Shown: positions 26,266-43,628 of the stretch, in pieces
How positions within the stretch are numbered: position 1 is the first letter of the stretch
How the letters are laid out: each line of letters begins with the position of its first letter
NCBI RefSeq assembly: GCF_018437505.1
Contig: NZ_CP072467.1
Span: forward strand, 2,356,001-2,420,000
DNA from: Spiractinospora alimapuensis
GTDB lineage: Bacteria; Actinomycetota; Actinomycetes; Streptosporangiales; Streptosporangiaceae
Direction: 5' to 3'
Length of the DNA: 64,000 bases
Program-made: the position numbers and the translations under genes
The notes under the pieces: model-generated
Databases searched by the model: none
What the model was told of the DNA's origin: nothing
Seen by the model: only the letters and a program-made list of their open reading frames with translations

Positions 26266-27534
26266 TCAGGAGCCGATCCCCGGGTACAGGGGGTGCTTGC
26301 GCGCCAGCGCGGTGACCCGAGCGCTGAGAGCCTCAGCGTCGAAGTCCGGCCGGAGCGCGGCGGCGATGACGTCGGCCACCTCGGTGAAGTCCTCCTCGGA
26401 GAATCCACGGGTCGCCAGCGCCGGGGTCCCGATCCGTAGTCCGGAGGTCACCATCGGCGGACGCGGGTCCCCGGGGACCGCGTTGCGGTTGACGGTGATC
26501 CCGATCTCGTGCAGCCGGTCCTCGGCCTGACGCCCGTCCAGCTCCGACTCACGCAGGTCCACCAGCACCAGGTGGACATCCGTGCCTCCGGTGAGGACGC
26601 GGACACCGACCTCGGAGGCGTCGGACTGCGACAGCCGCTCGGCGAGGATTCGGGCACCCGCCAGCGTGCGGCGCTGCCGGTCCTTGAACTCCTCGGATCC
26701 GGCGATCTTCAGCGCCACGGCCTTACCGGCGATGGCGTGTTCCAGCGGCCCGCCCTGGAGCCCCGGGAACACGGCCGAGTTGAGCTTCTTTCCGTACTCC
26801 TCCTTGGCCAGGATCAGTCCAGCACGCGGACCACCCAGGGTCTTGTGCGTCGTCGTGGTGACGACATCCGCGTGCGGGACCGGGTTGGGGTGCAGTCCCG
26901 CGGCCACCAGGCCCGCGAAGTGGGCCATGTCAACCAGCAGCAGCGCGCCCACCTCGTCGGCGATCGCCCGGAAGCGGGCGAAGTCGAGTTGACGCGGATA
27001 GGCCGACCACCCAGCGACGATCATGCGCGGCTGGTGTTCCTTCGCCAGCTTCGCGACCTCGTCGTAGTCCACCAGCCCCGTGGACTCGTCCACGTGGTAG
27101 GCGACGGCGTTGAGGATCTTCCCGGAGTAGTTCAGCCGCATCCCGTGCGTGAGATGGCCGCCATGGGCCAGGTCCAGACCAAGAATGGTGTCGCCGGCGT
27201 TGAGCAGTGCGAAGTAGACGGCCGTGTTGGCCTGCGCGCCCGCGTGCGGCTGCACGTTGGCGTACTCGGCGCCGAACAGTTCCTTGGCCCGGTCGATCGC
27301 GAGCTGTTCGATCACATCGACATGCTCGCAGCCGCCGTAGTAACGCTTCCCGGGGTAGCCTTCCGCGTATTTGTTGGTGAGCACTGACCCTTGTGCCTCT
27401 AGAACCGCCTGCGGAGCGAAGTTCTCCGAAGCGATCATCTCCAGGGTGTCACGCTGGCGCCGAAGCTCCGCGTCCACCGCGGTCGCTACCTCAGGGTCGA
27501 CCTGCGCGAGCGGCTGGTTGAGGAGGCTGGACAT
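26266..27534 (-). CDS. glyA: Serine hydroxymethyltransferase
   Basis: 422 residues, PLP enzyme interconverting serine and glycine with tetrahydrofolate. The PLP-lysine region reads [19 protein letters not shown], with IASENFAP near the N-terminus and [16 protein letters not shown]. Length is typical. It sits directly behind gcvH (four bases between them) in a gcvT-gcvH-glyA operon, with AAGGAGA before ATG 27534. The tandem glycine riboswitch ahead of gcvT therefore probably controls it too. Confidence 0.96.
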
Positions 27535-27538
27535 GCGC

Positions 27539-27919
27539 TTAACTCTCTCCTTCGATGAGGCTTGTGTACTGCTCCGGGGTCATCAGGTCCTCGGGGTCCT
27601 GGGCCAGTTCGACCTTGAACAGCCACCCCTGACCGTAGGGGTCACTCCCCACGGTCTCCGGATCGTCCTCGACGGATTGGTTGACCTCAACCACCTCCCC
27701 GTCGACCGGCGAATAGATGTCGCTGACGGATTTGGTGGACTCGACTTCGCCACACGTCTCTCCGGCAGTGACGGAGGAGCCCACCTCGGGCGCCTCCACA
27801 TAGACAATCTCGCCCAGGGCTTCGGCCGCGTACGCGGTGATCCCCACGGTGGCGACTCCGTCGGTCACGGATACCCACTCGTGCTCGCTCGTGTAGCCCA
27901 GCTCGGCAGGAACGCTCAA
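27539..27919 (-). CDS. gcvH: Glycine cleavage system H protein
   Basis: 126-residue lipoyl carrier. The lipoyl lysine is K63 in VESTKSVSD, with YTSEHEWV at the N-terminus and [10 protein letters not shown] after it. It shuttles the aminomethyl group between GcvP, GcvT and GcvL. The start is TTG 27919 with AAGGAG seven bases upstream; an in-frame ATG at 27940 lies upstream of that ribosome site. Between gcvT and glyA; gcvP is not in the window. Confidence 0.94.
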
Positions 27920-27952
27920 CTCCGTACTCCTTGATTCCAACAGACGACGCCC

Positions 27953-29053
27953 TCAGCGTTGACGCCTGTAGAACGGCAGCTCGACCGCGTCGGCGGGCTC
28001 CGGTCTGCCACGAACGTCCACAGCCAGCTCGCCGCCGGCGTCGATTTCGGTGTCCAGATATGCCATCGCAATGGGGCGCCCTACCGTCGGCGAGGGCGCC
28101 CCGCTGGTGATCGTGCCGACTCGGGCACCTTCGTGCAACACGGCGTACCCCTGACGGGGCACTCTCCGTCCGCGTCCGACCAAACCCACCAGACGGCTGC
28201 GTGGGCCGGCCTCCGCGCGCGCCCGCAGCGCGGAGCGCCCCACGAAATCCGCGGGTTTCTCCAGGTTTACCACCCGCCCAAGCCCAGCTTCGTACGGAGT
28301 GACGTCACGGGAGAGCTCATGCCCGTACAGGGGCATGCCGGCCTCCAGGCGCAGCGTGTCCCGAGCGGAGAGTCCGGCCGGGAGAAGCCCGTGGTCGCGG
28401 CCCGCGTCGGTCAGCGCTTCCCACAGCGCGGGCGCCCGTTCGGGCTCTCGGAGGAAAAGTTCGAACCCGTCCTCTCCGGTGTATCCGGTCCGCGCGAGGA
28501 GGACGTCGTGTCCGGCGACCGTAGCGGTGTAGCCGGCGAAGTACTTGATCTCGTCGAGCGGGGTGTCGGTGAGGCCGGCGAGGATGGTCACGGCGTTGGG
28601 GCCCTGCACCGCGAGCAGGGCGTAGTCGGCGGAGTCGTCGATGACCTGGGCGTCGAAGCCGGAGGCCCGCTCCAGCAGCGCGTCCACGACCACGTCGGTG
28701 TTGGCCGCGTTGGCGACGACGAGGTACTCGTCCTCACCGAGCCGGTAGGTGATCAGGTCGTCGAGGACGCCGCCCTCGGCGTCGGTGATCATTGAGTAGC
28801 GGGCGCGGCCGGGACGCAGCGTGGACATCGCGCCGACGAGCGCGTAGTCCAGGGCGTCGCCCGCCTGCCGCCCCGTGACCCGGATCTCGCCCATGTGCGA
28901 AAGGTCGAACAGGCCCGCCTGGTGACGCACGGCGAGGTGTTCCTCGCTCTCGCGGGCGTAGCGAACCGGCATCTGCCAGCCGGCGAAGTCGACGAGGGTG
29001 GCTCCGAGGTTCTGGTGCACCTCGTAGAGAGGTGTGCGGCGGGGTTCTTTCAC
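27953..29053 (-). CDS. gcvT: Glycine cleavage system T protein (aminomethyltransferase)
   Basis: 366 residues. Typical GcvT motifs are present: TPLYEVHQNLGATLVDFAGW, VRHQAGLFDLSHMGEI, ARTGYTGEDGFE and RLEAGMPLYGHE. It releases ammonia from the aminomethyl group on GcvH and makes 5,10-methylene-THF. I chose GTG 29053 with GGGAG five bases upstream; GTG 29059 is the other option. Preceded by a tandem glycine riboswitch. Confidence 0.95.
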   Translation of the reverse strand: MKEPRRTPLYEVHQNLGATLVDFAGWQMPVRYARESEEHLAVRHQAGLFDLSHMGEIRVTGRQAGDALDYALVGAMSTLRPGRARYSMITDAEGGVLDDLITYRLGEDEYLVVANAANTDVVVDALLERASGFDAQVIDDSADYALLAVQGPNAVTILAGLTDTPLDEIKYFAGYTATVAGHDVLLARTGYTGEDGFELFLREPERAPALWEALTDAGRDHGLLPAGLSARDTLRLEAGMPLYGHELSRDVTPYEAGLGRVVNLEKPADFVGRSALRARAEAGPRSRLVGLVGRGRRVPRQGYAVLHEGARVGTITSGAPSPTVGRPIAMAYLDTEIDAGGELAVDVRGRPEPADAVELPFYRRQR

Positions 29054-29104
29054 TGGCACTCCCGAGGGGATGGACGACTTCTAGACACGACGCCTCAACC
29101 CTCC

Positions 29105-29305
29105 CCCTCTGTCATCGGTGCCTGAGAGCTTCACCGCGTGTCCCTTTCTCGGGTGGTGCTGGCGCGGCTTGCACCTTCGGCGAGAGACCAGAGCCCCTGC
29201 TTTCCAGAGTTGGCTCACCCACACGGTCCTGAACGCCTGAGAGGTTCTTCGGGGAGGAATTGCTCCTTCGGCGGTCCCCGCTGGCGGCGAGGACTCTCTC
29301 CCGTG
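29105..29305 (-). promoter_or_regulatory. Tandem glycine riboswitch of the gcvT operon
   Basis: On the minus strand two aptamers are visible. The first begins GGGAGAGTCC and contains GCCGAAGGAGCAA, CCTCCCCGAA and CTCTCAGGC. The second has CTCTGGAAAGCAGG, GCCGAAGGTGCAAGCC and AAGCTCTCAGGC. This is the classical cooperative gcvT motif, ending about 50 bases before the gcvT start. Glycine binding normally turns the operon on. Confidence 0.95.
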
Positions 29306-29395
29306 CGGGTTCGACAGCCCACGCCAGCTTAGCAGTGGCGGTTCTCGCGGGCCGGCGGCACCCCGACACGGGCGCCGCCCGACCGCCGACTCTCG

Positions 29396-37806: not shown

Positions 37807-37998
37807 TACCTTGGACTCTCCGAGATCGGTCGAGGTGCGCCACACCTCTCGCACGACGCTTCACAGCCTAGGGGATCGATCATGCCCCTTCGACCCCTTC
37901 CACGCAGGCCGAGCCCCGCTGGCCGGCCCTGTTCGGCGCACACGTCCCTCACTGGGATGATGATCCCAGTCCCGCACGGGAGCACCAAGGGAGGAATC

Positions 37999-38481
37999 GT
38001 GACCGAAACCACCAAGCGACTCGAGCCGGGCGACCACGCCCCCGACTTCACCCTCAACGACGCCGACGGTAACCCCGTCACACTGAGCGAGGTCGTCCGG
38101 GGTGCGGGATCGGTGGTGCTGTACTTCTACCCCGCCGCCATGACGCCGGGCTGCACCAAGGAGGCCTGCGACTTCCGGGATAACCTGAGCGCCTTCGCCG
38201 ACTCCGACCTGCGCGTCCTGGGCGTCTCTCCCGACACCGTGGAGAAGCTGCGCGCGTTCCGCGACGCCGAGAAGCTGAACTTCACCCTCCTCAGCGACCC
38301 GGACCGCGAGGCGCTCACCGCCTACGGCGCCTACGGGGAGAAGAAGAACTACGGCAAGGTGGTGCGGGGCGTGATCCGGTCCACCTTCGTCATCAACGCC
38401 GACCTGACGATCGCCAAGGCGTTCTACAACGTCCGCGCCACCGGCCACGTCGACCGAATCAAGCGCGAGCTGGGCGTGTAG
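37999..38481 (+). CDS. bcp: Thioredoxin-dependent peroxiredoxin Bcp
   Basis: 160 residues, PrxQ/Bcp subfamily: peroxidatic Cys52 and resolving Cys57 in PGCTKEACDFRD, preceded by FYPAAMTPG, and the Arg in GVIRSTFVI. It reduces hydroperoxides with thioredoxin. GTG 37999 has GGGAGGAATC upstream. Likely a member of the oxidative-stress response, although I see no SigR consensus directly upstream. Immediately precedes a tRNA gene. Confidence 0.93.
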   Translation: MTETTKRLEPGDHAPDFTLNDADGNPVTLSEVVRGAGSVVLYFYPAAMTPGCTKEACDFRDNLSAFADSDLRVLGVSPDTVEKLRAFRDAEKLNFTLLSDPDREALTAYGAYGEKKNYGKVVRGVIRSTFVINADLTIAKAFYNVRATGHVDRIKRELGV

Positions 38482-38505
38482 TTGGTCTAGGATTGGGCCC
38501 GTGTC

Positions 38506-38578
38506 GGGGCCGTAGCCCAACGGCAGAGGCGGCAGGTTTAGGTCCTGTACAGTGCGGGTTCGAATCCCGCCGGCCCCA
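38506..38578 (+). tRNA. tRNA with UAG anticodon (Leu) and short variable loop
   Basis: A 73-base cloverleaf: acceptor GGGGCCG pairs with CGGCCCC (discriminator A at 38578), D arm GCCC...GGC, anticodon stem GCAGG/CCTGT with loop TTTAGGT (anticodon TAG, reading CUA Leu), a five-base variable loop ACAGT and a T arm GCGGG-TTCGAAT-CCCGC. CCA is not encoded. The decoding identity is Leu, but true bacterial tRNA-Leu is type II with a long variable arm, so this is an atypical isoacceptor or a tRNA-like gene. Confidence 0.85.
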
Positions 38579-39310
38579 CCGACGCACGAGGTTCGCCCCC
38601 TCGCCCAAAGAACGGGGGACGGGGGTCCGCAACCCGTCGGTGTCCTCGCACGGTTCGACGTCCGCCACACCCGAGCGCGACGAGTGGCTGGCACGACGCT
38701 CGTCGACGCCCAACCGTGCAGCGGTGGGGGCGCGGAGGCGAACCCGCCGGCCGCGACCAGGCGACGTTCCTGCCTCTCGTCCCGCTATTCGCCACGGCTG
38801 CCCGCGTCCGTTCGACCCGGCACCGATCGGGGATCCGGATCCGCCCAGCGTGACCAACAGCGTAGGCGTGACCGGGCGCACCAGGTCGCGGGCAACGGCC
38901 GTCGAGGCCTCGCCGGCACCGCCGACTCCGAACCCGACCTCGTCCCCATGGACCGTGTGGGCGGAAGGGCGACGTCGCCCCCGCGATCCACGGACTCGTC
39001 GGGAACGAAGCTCCCTACTGCGCCCACCACCGAGGACACCGGCCGTGCGATCCATGGCGCTCACAAATCCGGCGCCGACGGGTACCTCCACCGAGGAACG
39101 CGTCGTGCTCACCCTCGGCGTTCGCGACCTGGCCGTCGGCCGGCCGATGCCGTGAACAGGAGGCGGAGAGCAGGATCAGCTCCCGGGTGATCGACCTCTA
39201 CGCCTCGTCACCGACGTTGGTTGGCGCGGTTTCCGGGCGGGCGCTTGCCCAGGGTTGACCGAGGCACGCCCATTTTGGGTTGTTCGGAGAATCCAACACA
39301 ACATGTAGTA
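38579..39310. other. Intergenic region without a supportable gene
   Basis: About 730 bases between the tRNA and the cobalamin riboswitch. Open frames exist on both strands, as expected at this GC content, but none has a ribosome site plus recognisable family motifs. A possible vestige is the plus-strand frame near 39050-39150 encoding VVLTLGVRDLAVG, too short to name. No integrase or direct repeat of the tRNA 3' end is visible. Confidence 0.4.
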
Positions 39311-39314
39311 TCAG

Positions 39315-39505
39315 CCCTGCCAATGGTCCGCCGTCCCTGGGGGCGGCGGGGCAAGAGGGAACCCGGTGTGAGTCCGGGACTGCCCCGCAGCGGTGAGTGG
39401 GAACAACCGCCGTCATGAGCACTGGGCGCGTGAACGCCTGGGAAGCGACGGCCAGTAGGAACGACCCGAGTTCGGTCGTGTGCCCACGAGTCCGAAGACC
39501 TGCCA
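39315..39505 (+). promoter_or_regulatory. Cobalamin riboswitch ahead of nrdAB
   Basis: The B12 aptamer core is clear: GGCAAGAGGGAACCCGGTG, AGTCCGGGACTGCCCCGCA, GCGGTGAGTGGGAACAACC, and the 3' closing element AGTCCGAAGACCTGCC. It lies about 160 bases before nrdA. Cobalamin riboswitches of this type usually shut off B12-independent isoenzymes when cobalamin is plentiful. A B12-dependent NrdJ elsewhere in the genome would make sense of that. Confidence 0.94.
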
Positions 39506-39666
39506 TCGGTGCGTGCATCGCTTGCACGGTGTCCGGGGCCTCGTGGGAGGGCCGACGCGGACGTGGTCGACGGTGCCGCCCGAGTACGGTGTCGCGGACC
39601 CCTCGCGTGCCTCCAACGTCCCCCCGGACGTTCCAGATGAGGTTCTCGAACGAGGGGGAGAGTCCC

Positions 39667-42504
39667 GTGGTTGAGTCATCCACCCAGACACCGAGTCAGG
39701 TCCGGCCCGAGGAGACGCCGGTTCGCGTCCTGCGCCGGGACGGATCGGTGTCGGGTTTCGACGCCGACAAGATCTCGGTCGCGCTCACCAAGGCGTTCCT
39801 CGCCGTGGAGGGAGACGGCGCGGCCGCGTCGTCGCGACTGCACGACCTGGTGTCCGCACTGACCCAGGAGGTCCAGGCCGCACTGTCGCGGTACTCCGGA
39901 CCGGGCACGATCCTGCACATCGAGCAGATCCAGGACCAGGTCGAACTCGCCCTGATGCGGGGCGGCAACCATCAGGTCGCGCGGGACTACGTGCTCTACC
40001 GGGAACAGCGCTCCGAGGCCCGCCGCGCCGCCGCCGGCACTACGACCGCCCCCGGCGCGGCCCAGGAACCTGACCTGACCGTGACCCACACCGACGGCAC
40101 CACCCACCCGCTGGACTGGGCGCGGGTACGCACCATCACCGAGCAGGCGTGTTCGGGACTGGACAACATCGATCCGGCCGTCGTCCTGACCGAGGCCCGA
40201 CGCAACCTCTACGACGGCATGAGTACCACCGAGCTCGACGAGGCGCTGACCCTCGCCGCTCGCGCGCTCGTGGAACGCGACCCGGACTACTCGCGGGTCA
40301 GCGCCCGCCTTCTCCTCGACCAACTGCGCCGCGAGGCCCTGTCCCACCTGGCCGGCGAGCCCCGAGAGACCGACCAGGAACAGATCCGCGACCTGTACCC
40401 GTCCTACTTCGCCGACTACGTCCACCGCGGCGTCGAGCTGGAGATGCTCGCCCCCGAGCTCGCCGGGTTCGACCTCGACCTGCTGGGCGAGGCGCTGCAC
40501 CCCGAGCGAGATCTGGACTTCGACTACCTGGGGCTGCAGACCCTCTACGACCGCTACTTCCTGCACACGCGCGGCACCCGCCTCGAGCTGCCACAGGCGT
40601 TCTTCATGCGGGTCGCGATGGGGCTGGCGCTGAACGAGGACCGGCGTGAGGAGCGTGCGGTCGAGTTCTACGAACTGCTCTCCTCGTTCGACTTCATGTG
40701 CTCCACCCCCACGCTGTTCAACGCGGGGACCACTCGGCCCCAGTTGTCGTCGTGCTTCCTGACCACGGTCGACGACGACCTGGACTCGATCTTCCGGGCG
40801 TACCGCAACAACGCGCTGCTCGCGAAGTACAGCGGGGGGCTCGGCAACGACTGGACCCCGGTGCGGGGTATGGGCGCCCACATCAAGGGCACCAACGGCA
40901 CCTCCCAGGGGCTCGTCCCGTTCCTGAAGATCGCCAACGACACGGCCGTCGCGGTCAACCAGGGTGGGAAACGCAAGGGCGCCGCCTGCGCGTACCTGGA
41001 GACGTGGCACATCGACATCGAGGAGTTCCTCGACCTGCGCAAGAACACCGGCGACGACCGGCGTCGGACCCACGACATGAACACCGCCGCCTGGGTGCCG
41101 GACGAGTTCATGCGCCGGGTCGAGGCCGACGCCGACTGGTGGCTTTTCTCCCCCGACGAGGTTCCCGACCTGCACGACCTGTACGGGCCGGAGTTCACCG
41201 AGCGGTACCGGCACTACGAGCGGGCGGCCGAACGGGGCGAGCTGACGGTGTCCCGCCGGGTCCGCGCCGTGGAGCTGTGGCGTCGCATCCTCACCATGCT
41301 GTTCGAGACCGGGCACCCGTGGATCACCTTCAAGGACCCGTGCAACCTGCGGTCACCGCAGCAGCACGCGGGCGTGGTGCACTCCTCCAACCTGTGCACG
41401 GAGATCACCCTCAACACGAGCGGCGACGAGGTCGCGGTGTGCAACCTTGGCTCCGTCAACCTCGCGCGGCACGTCACCCCCGAAGGGCTGGACACCGACC
41501 GGCTGCGGCGCACGGTGCGCACGGCGGTGCGGATGTTGGACAACGTGATCGACATCAACTTCTACACGATCCCCGAGGCACTCCGGTCCAACCTCCGGCA
41601 TCGGCCGGTGGGACTCGGGCTGATGGGCTTCGCCGACGCGCTCGTGCGGCAGGGAATCCCCCAGGCCTCCGTGGACGCCGTGGAGTTCGCCGACCGCAGC
41701 ATGGAGGAGATCAGCTTCCACGCCATCGCGGCCTCCAGCGACCTCGCGCGTGAGCGGGGCCGCTACGAGTCCTTCGACGGGTCCCTGTGGAGCCAGGGGG
41801 TGCTGCCGATCGACTCGCTGCGGCTGCTCGCCGACGCCCGGGGGGACGCCGAATTCGACCACTCCGCCACCCTGGACTGGGACGGGTTGCGCGAGCGGGT
41901 GCGGCGCGAGGGGATGCGCAACTCCAACGTGATGGCCATCGCGCCCACCGCGACGATCGCGAACGTCTGCGGGGTCACCCAGTCCATCGAACCGCTGTAC
42001 CGCAACCTGTACGTGAAGTCGAACATGTCCGGTGACTTCACCGTGGTCAACCCGTACCTGGTGCGGGATCTACGGCGGGCCGGCCTGTGGGACGCGGCGA
42101 TGGTCGCCGACCTGAAGTACTTCGACGGGGTGCTGGGCCCGATCGACCGGATCCCGGCCGAGCTCAAGGAACGGTACGCGACGGCGTTCGAGATCGAACC
42201 GCGCTGGCTGGTCGCAGCCGCGGCGCGTCGACAGAAGTGGATCGACCAGGCGCAGTCGCTGAACCTCTACCTGGCCGAGCCCAGTGGCCGAAAGCTGGAC
42301 GAGCTCTACCGGTCGGCGTGGCGCAGCGGACTCAAGACGACCTACTACCTGCGCTCCAGCAGCGCGACCTCGGTGGAGAAGAGCACGCTGCGTGGAACCG
42401 ACGGCAGGCTGAACGCCGTCCCCGCCACCGTCGCCGGAACCGCTCCCCCGGAGGGCCCGGCCATCTGCTCGGTGGACGACGAGGGGTGTGAGGCGTGCCA
42501 GTAG
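39667..42504 (+). CDS. nrdA: Class I ribonucleotide reductase, large subunit, two ATP-cones
   Basis: 945 residues, longer than the 760 of E. coli NrdA because of two N-terminal ATP-cones: about 15-110 ([18 protein letters not shown]) and about 140-235 ([20 protein letters not shown]). The barrel has SSCFL (first redox Cys), the NLCTEI radical site (N, C, E) and CNLGSVNL (second redox Cys), [10 protein letters not shown], and the C-terminal shuttle CEAC. This double-cone architecture resembles Chlamydia and Pseudomonas NrdA. GTG 39667 has GGGGGAGA before it; the frame is open upstream through the riboswitch, but that part is not protein. Followed by nrdB 47 bases later. Confidence 0.93.
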
Positions 42505-42551
42505 GCCCCGCGTCCGTTCCCACCCACCGAACCCACGAAGAAGGACCTCCC

Positions 42552-43628
<1,077 letters not shown>

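Follow-up and report, generated by a model that had tools for sequence, protein, structure and literature searches.

A long variable arm is described for tRNALeu everywhere but in animal mitochondria, and leucylation in E. coli is reported to require A73, A15-U48, G18G19 and A20a (PMC9976931, partial text). According to the same partial text, neither the sequence nor the folding of the long arm of E. coli tRNALeu correlates with leucylation, armless variants being still charged, and the identity of human mt-tRNALeu(UUR) resides in A73 together with A14. In bacteria, a tRNA cluster of two mycobacteria includes a tRNALeu(TAG) with a short variable loop where a 'normal' larger one was expected (PMC6582537, partial text), and tRNALeu-2, 3 and 5 of M. 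tuberculosis have a long loop (PMC11541572, partial text). We infer that the remaining tRNALeu of M. tuberculosis are short, which fits genome G482, where the CAA and UAA tRNALeu are short. No description of short-arm bacterial tRNALeu as a class was found in open-licence papers, and an earlier one elsewhere is quite possible.

In this study, we report on a tRNA-Leu(UAG) with a short variable loop encoded in a stretch of 64,000 nucleotides from Spiractinospora alimapuensis, which was analysed as a whole and is referred to here as the window. In all likelihood, it is a working leucine tRNA for CUA that belongs to a short-arm tRNALeu class of bacteria and phages, and it is predicted to be charged by the single LeuRS of the genome. 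On the best reading, this class is structurally non-canonical, resembling tRNALeu in its predicted function and lacking the long arm of class II. The short form is similar to animal mitochondrial tRNALeu in being a leucine tRNA without a long arm, but differs in occurring in bacterial chromosomes and phages and in having G18G19 and a standard T-loop. Its anatomy is the same as that of the tRNALeu(TAG) in the mycobacterial cluster (PMC6582537, partial text), which is a copy beside the normal gene, whereas here the short form is the sole chromosomal CUA reader found.

Structure and setting of tRNA-Leu(UAG)

The locus was identified as a tRNA by RF00005 (59.2 bits, E = 2.9e-10) in agreement with ARAGORN, and it was the sole tRNA found by either of them within the window. 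The initial annotation, made from the letters of the sequence, had proposed a short-loop tRNA with a Leu UAG anticodon, and this was confirmed by both programs, with a loop of 5 nt. The features of the locus are provided in Table 1. The arm-by-arm split is GGGGCCG TA GCCCAACGGCAGAGGC G GCAGG-UUUAGGU-CCUGU ACAGU GCGGG-UUCGAAU-CCCGC CGGCCCC A; the 3' CCA is not encoded, A73 being followed by CCG.

Table 1. Features of the tRNA-Leu(UAG) locus (positions in the window)
Feature	Position	Strand	Basis
bcp (thioredoxin-dependent thiol peroxidase)	37999..38481	+	NCBIfam NF006960, 149 bits (cut-off 140)
tRNA-Leu(UAG), short variable loop	38506..38578	+	ARAGORN, RF00005, model R1
D-arm GCCC AACGGCAGA GGC: 3-bp stem, A14, A15, G18, G19, A20a	38515..38530	+	arm-by-arm split
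Anticodon UAG (TAG in the DNA), reads CUA	38539..38541	+	sequence, ARAGORN, Rfam, arm-by-arm split
Variable loop ACAGU (ACAGT in the DNA; 44-48), ends G-U48 as in the long-arm tRNALeu of this genome	38549..38553	+	ARAGORN, Rfam, arm-by-arm split
A73	38578	+	ARAGORN, Rfam

Class II tRNAs have a long arm of at least 10 nt and the gene was not filed among them because its variable loop has only 5 nt. The canonical class I core, with a 4-bp D-stem and G46, is not present either: the D-stem is one pair shorter and residue 46 is A, so that of the canonical type I fold first assigned to the gene the 5-nt loop stands and the core does not. The D-arm has the tRNALeu layout, with three pairs instead of four. 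Unconstrained folding gave a minimum of -35.0 kcal/mol for a structure other than the cloverleaf (-33.6 kcal/mol); this structure is also without a long variable arm, and the better long-arm fold that had been considered as an alternative did not appear. Of six further tRNAs from the same genome, Lys-CUU and His did not give the complete cloverleaf in silico either.

Covariation among 44 aligned short-arm genes with a UAG or UAA anticodon, that of the window included, supports the cloverleaf. In this alignment, standard pairs make up 99.4% of the 880 pair cells and both sides change in 15 of the 20 stem pairs, while slid versions of the pairing reach no more than 54.8%. A covariance model built from this alignment (R1) gave the tRNA-Leu(UAG) 95.7 bits, a score that is not independent because the sequence is among the model's input; the other tRNAs of the genome, the short UAA one aside, reached at most 54.7 bits. 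Three short Leu genes, two of them R1's own input, scored between 71 and 96 bits and the other tRNAs given to the model no more than 54.7. Membership in the short-arm tRNALeu class was set at 67 bits or more, and the tRNA-Leu(UAG) lies above this value. Matches of 65.6 bits or less were tried as further short-arm Leu genes and rejected, as none of the six fetched was one: L218, L219, L220, L221 and L227 are tRNA-Met or tRNA-Val and L223 is a long-arm tRNALeu. For this reason, not every R1 match was counted in the surveys below.

The genome (5.86 Mb, single contig) has 49 tRNAs according to RF00005, among which each of the five Leu anticodons is represented by one gene. ARAGORN typing of these loci, which answers the initial call to find the other leucine tRNAs, gave three long-arm tRNALeu (CAA, CAG and GAG, with variable arms of 15, 15 and 17 nt, respectively) and one more short one, with anticodon UAA and a 6-nt loop. 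There was no second tRNA with a UAG anticodon among the 49 matches. With one gene per anticodon, no reader of UUA or CUA was therefore found other than the short UAA and UAG tRNAs. The idea of a special isoacceptor, raised at the outset, was right in the sense that the gene is a member of a distinct short-arm tRNALeu class. The UAA tRNA (G000:C1:4671715-4671788; L048 116-189) has the same D-arm layout and A73.

With the three long-arm tRNALeu of the genome, which are of the bacterial class II, the short form shares the Leu anticodon, the residues A14, A15, U48, G18G19, A20a and A73, a D-stem of 3 bp and a joiner that ends in G-U48. In G482, the long-arm UAG tRNA carries U20a in place of A20a. 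It differs from bacterial class II tRNALeu in the variable loop (5-6 vs. 15-18 nt) and in the D-stem, where C12-G23 and C13 take the place of the G12-C23 and G13 of this genome's long-arm genes. The G1:C72 end had been noted initially as unusual; it is not distinctive, since it is present in all five tRNALeu of the genome, the long-armed ones included.

It must be noted that in the anticodon loop of the genome's single UAA tRNA (CCUAAAA) position 33 is C and not U. C33 occurs in 13 of the 17 UAA genes of the 44-sequence alignment and U33 in the other four, and it might result in slow UUA decoding. In Streptomyces, the UUA tRNA is a developmental switch.

The stop codon of bcp lies 24 bases upstream of the tRNA gene. 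Of the 30 short-arm UAG loci L049-L078, 26 have a bcp gene at a distance of about 0.6 kb or less (the exceptions are L058, L060, L067 and L068), and so do all 11 loci L118-L128, seven of which are long-armed and four short-armed; in L118, L122 and L123 the tRNA gene lies the other way round with respect to bcp. The bcp gene also neighbours the UAG gene in families f24, f34 and f21, and was absent from the fetched flank at eight UAG loci of f16 and f32, two of f64 and one of f43. Within the window's family at least, short and long UAG genes hold corresponding places.

Distribution and origin of the short-arm form

BLAST with the UAG tRNA gave matches in 91 of 100 family genomes, partial and long-arm matches included, and with the UAA tRNA in 95 of 100, the best match per genome spanning 71-76 bases. 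In seven checked genomes of the family (L118-L124) the UAG gene is long-armed, with 84-87 nt according to ARAGORN; by BLAST, six of these seven have a short UAA match and G002 has none. In the order sample, made up nearly entirely of one family, an R1 match with E of 1e-11 or less was found in 248 of 249 genomes, the weakest best match being 1.4e-14 and the exception being again G002. In G065, also of this family, a short-arm tRNALeu(CAA) (L111 3001-3076) occurs besides the short UAA one (L112).

The class sample of 296 genomes, 31 of them from the window's own family, gave R1 matches in 280, or about 275 after removal of the weak ones, a count in which the matches were mostly not read individually. 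In the five genomes removed (G346, G376, G431, G435 and G491) every match was weaker than E 1e-12, and one of these matches turned out to be a tRNA-Val, while all 20 loci fetched among the stronger matches were tRNALeu of 74-79 nt according to ARAGORN. The phylum sample gave matches in 88 of 246 genomes and in 77 of 246 without the 11 genomes whose best match was 65.6 bits or less; 55 of these 77 lie outside the class. The short-arm form is thus very frequent within the class, and its occurrence in the rest of the phylum is patchy. The large genomes of family f18 had weaker matches, and all six matches fetched there were short Leu genes, with anticodon CAA in five cases and UAG in one (L212-L217); six f18 genomes of the class sample had no match and three more had weak ones only. 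R1 gave no match in families f15 (five genomes) and f22 (three genomes).

A pattern search for the short body with a UAA or UAG anticodon gave at least 118 stretches. Among the matches listed, ARAGORN called 116 as tRNALeu of 74-77 nt (106 UAA and 10 UAG) and no tRNA in two other stretches. The titles among the matches listed included Mycobacterium, Mycolicibacterium, Nocardia, Gordonia, Rhodococcus, Corynebacterium, Microbacterium, Arthrobacter, Pseudonocardia, Streptosporangium and Thermobifida fusca, the last from a genus that we take to belong to the same family as the window's genome, Streptosporangiaceae in GTDB. Typing of the 45 tRNAs of G482 gave one gene for each leucine anticodon, CAA and UAA short and CAG, GAG and UAG long, whereas UAA and UAG are the short ones in the window's genome; therefore, the isoacceptors that are short differ between lineages.

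The loci labelled as non-actinobacterial (L281, L335, L342 and L380) come from metagenome bins, in which contamination is possible. In one bin labelled Chloroflexi AL-N1 (L342 6477-7937), an array of 15 tRNAs in the stretch includes four short-arm tRNALeu with anticodons GAG, CAG, UAA and CAA, plus a 76-nt tRNA-Tyr. A bin labelled Rokuibacteriota (L281 384-670) has a Gly-Cys-Leu(UAA) cluster, the Leu gene being short-armed and with an encoded CCA; this suggests that the short-arm form extends beyond Actinomycetota, although the sequence may be a contaminant.

The short-arm body was also found in phages. Two pattern scans of viral contigs, with A35 fixed or with the anticodon free, gave at least 120 stretches each and together 123 listed stretches, three of them from the free-anticodon scan alone and three from the A35-fixed scan alone. 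All 132 viral matches listed carry leucine anticodons (UAA 64, UAG 31, CAA 30, AAG 3, GAG 3 and CAG 1). In 296 phylum genomes the free pattern matched in 48, with leucine anticodons in all 52 matches listed (UAA 36, CAA 10 and UAG 6), and a reversed-pattern control gave no match in the same genomes. No other isotype with the short-arm body appeared among the 184 viral and genomic matches listed. This link between body and leucine is an association and not 184 independent events, as the sequences are related.

With BLAST, 49 phage records were listed for the UAG query and 43 for a UAA query, five of which were read individually. Short-arm tRNALeu are annotated as tRNA-Leu in Streptomyces phage Manuel, Mycobacterium phage Kykar, Citrobacter phage Moogle (77 nt with CCA according to ARAGORN) and the Prochlorococcus cyanophage P-RSM6, while that of Thermobifida phage P318 (MK240575; UAG, L445 297-370) is unannotated in its record. 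The record of phage Moogle places the tRNA-Leu (L443 301-377) on the strand opposite to that called by ARAGORN. The Citrobacter phage tRNA had no match in the E. coli genome collection.

With respect to its origin, the short form would have derived by loss of the arm from a long-arm tRNALeu ancestor; it agrees with the resident long-arm tRNALeu in its D-loop layout, its GU joiner and A73. It is also conceivable, and in our opinion somewhat less probable than not, that no arm was lost here and that an old mobile lineage, carried by phages and tRNA arrays, replaced the long-arm gene near bcp. Phages whose hosts are unrelated have the same body, the L342 array brings together four short-arm tRNALeu that differ in anticodon, and short and long forms make a mosaic across isoacceptors and genera; phages could equally have taken copies from their hosts, however. 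Phage copies, array and mosaic distribution are also compatible with a further proposal, which we hold to be rather unlikely, that a phage-traded mobile lineage has repeatedly displaced long-arm isoacceptors, perhaps because without the arm the tRNA is hidden from factors that read it. These would perhaps be SerRS, with its mischarging, or tRNA-cutting or tRNA-capping toxins of host or phage.

Whether it arose by arm loss or by replacement, the short form contradicts the long-arm rule for tRNALeu in most sampled genomes of the class, in part of the phylum and in some phages. In this regard, the short-arm genes are natural substrates on which the action of LeuRS without an arm, and the discrimination made by SerRS, TyrRS and arm-reading toxins, could be studied. 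Annotation could also misjudge these genes where its isotype models or tRNA-seq rules presuppose a long Leu arm.

Decoding of CUA and leucine identity

The tRNA-Leu(UAG), presumably expressed, would read CUA as leucine, being the sole reader found for this codon, and it very probably still simply delivers leucine. The genome has one LeuRS gene above the bacterial family cut-off (940 bits). In the simplest mechanism, this enzyme would charge short and long forms through identical contacts, because bacterial LeuRS relies on the discriminator base and the corner of D-loop and T-loop and not on the arm. The leucine determinants listed in PMC9976931 (partial text), namely A73, A15:U48, G18G19 and A20a, are all present in the tRNA-Leu(UAG). 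Among the 44 aligned short-arm sequences, A73, G18G19 and A20a are found in all 44 and A15 in 41. The 15:48 position is A15:U48 in 38 of them, G15:C48 in three, A15/C48 in two and A15/A48 in one; the A15:U48 determinant is thus not absolute, as three of the 44 sequences break the 15:48 pair.

A change in the meaning of CUA and UUA, by which the short tRNAs would be given another amino acid by another synthetase, has precedents: in mitochondria, tRNAs whose anticodon is UAG are loaded with Thr in S. cerevisiae and with Ala in Ashbya gossypii (PMC7609411, partial text). For the codon test, 460 kb of the genome were compared in both directions with 400 kb of a relative (G030). CUA, UUA and four further rare codons had been masked in both genomes before they were aligned, and the comparison gave 108 aligned stretches and 37,786 positions. 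CUA stood opposite Leu in 44 of 63 countable pairs, followed by Ile in four, no other residue exceeding this number. UUA was opposite Leu in six of 14 pairs, a thin sample in which Leu is the commonest residue. As for the controls, the Leu codon CTT was opposite Leu in 103 of 167 pairs and GTA opposite Val in 88 of 157, while ATA was opposite Ile in only seven of 30 (Val in eight) and AGA opposite Arg in 15 of 32; given these low values for ATA and AGA, the test discriminates poorly when codons are very rare. The result for CUA largely refutes reassignment of this codon, and since the leucine determinants are retained too, reassignment was rejected as very improbable. The charging by another synthetase suggested initially has no support from the retained determinants, the one LeuRS, the Leu residues opposite CUA or the leucine anticodons of all 184 matches listed.

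A non-translational role, as aminoacyl donor or regulator, for which decoding would not be needed, had likewise been put forward. Nothing in favour of such a role was found. It goes against a single-contig genome on which this is the only UAG-anticodon tRNA found and whose ordinary genes use CUA (50 of the genome's own 37,228 aligned codons), opposite Leu in conserved proteins, and we consider it scarcely probable. Finally, the compensated stem changes of the alignment and the matches in several hundred genomes refute a pseudogene, sequencing error or prediction artefact, to which we assign a negligible probability.

Other elements of the window

Around the tRNA gene, a scan that suits actinobacteria poorly gave no sigma-70-like promoter and no terminator-like site. 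Long antisense open frames run across the tRNA on the minus strand (37861-38694 and 38459-39112), with peptides such as GGIRTRTVQDLNLPPLPLGYGPD; they are likely spurious proteins of the kind that the antisense strands of tRNA genes yield. In 26266-29313, on the minus strand, a tandem glycine riboswitch precedes genes for a putative glycine cleavage T protein and serine hydroxymethyltransferase, both named by eye. In addition, a cobalamin riboswitch (97.1 bits) in 39307-43628 precedes genes that best match the alpha and beta subunits of ribonucleotide reductase and that fall just below the cut-off of the B12-dependent NrdJ model.
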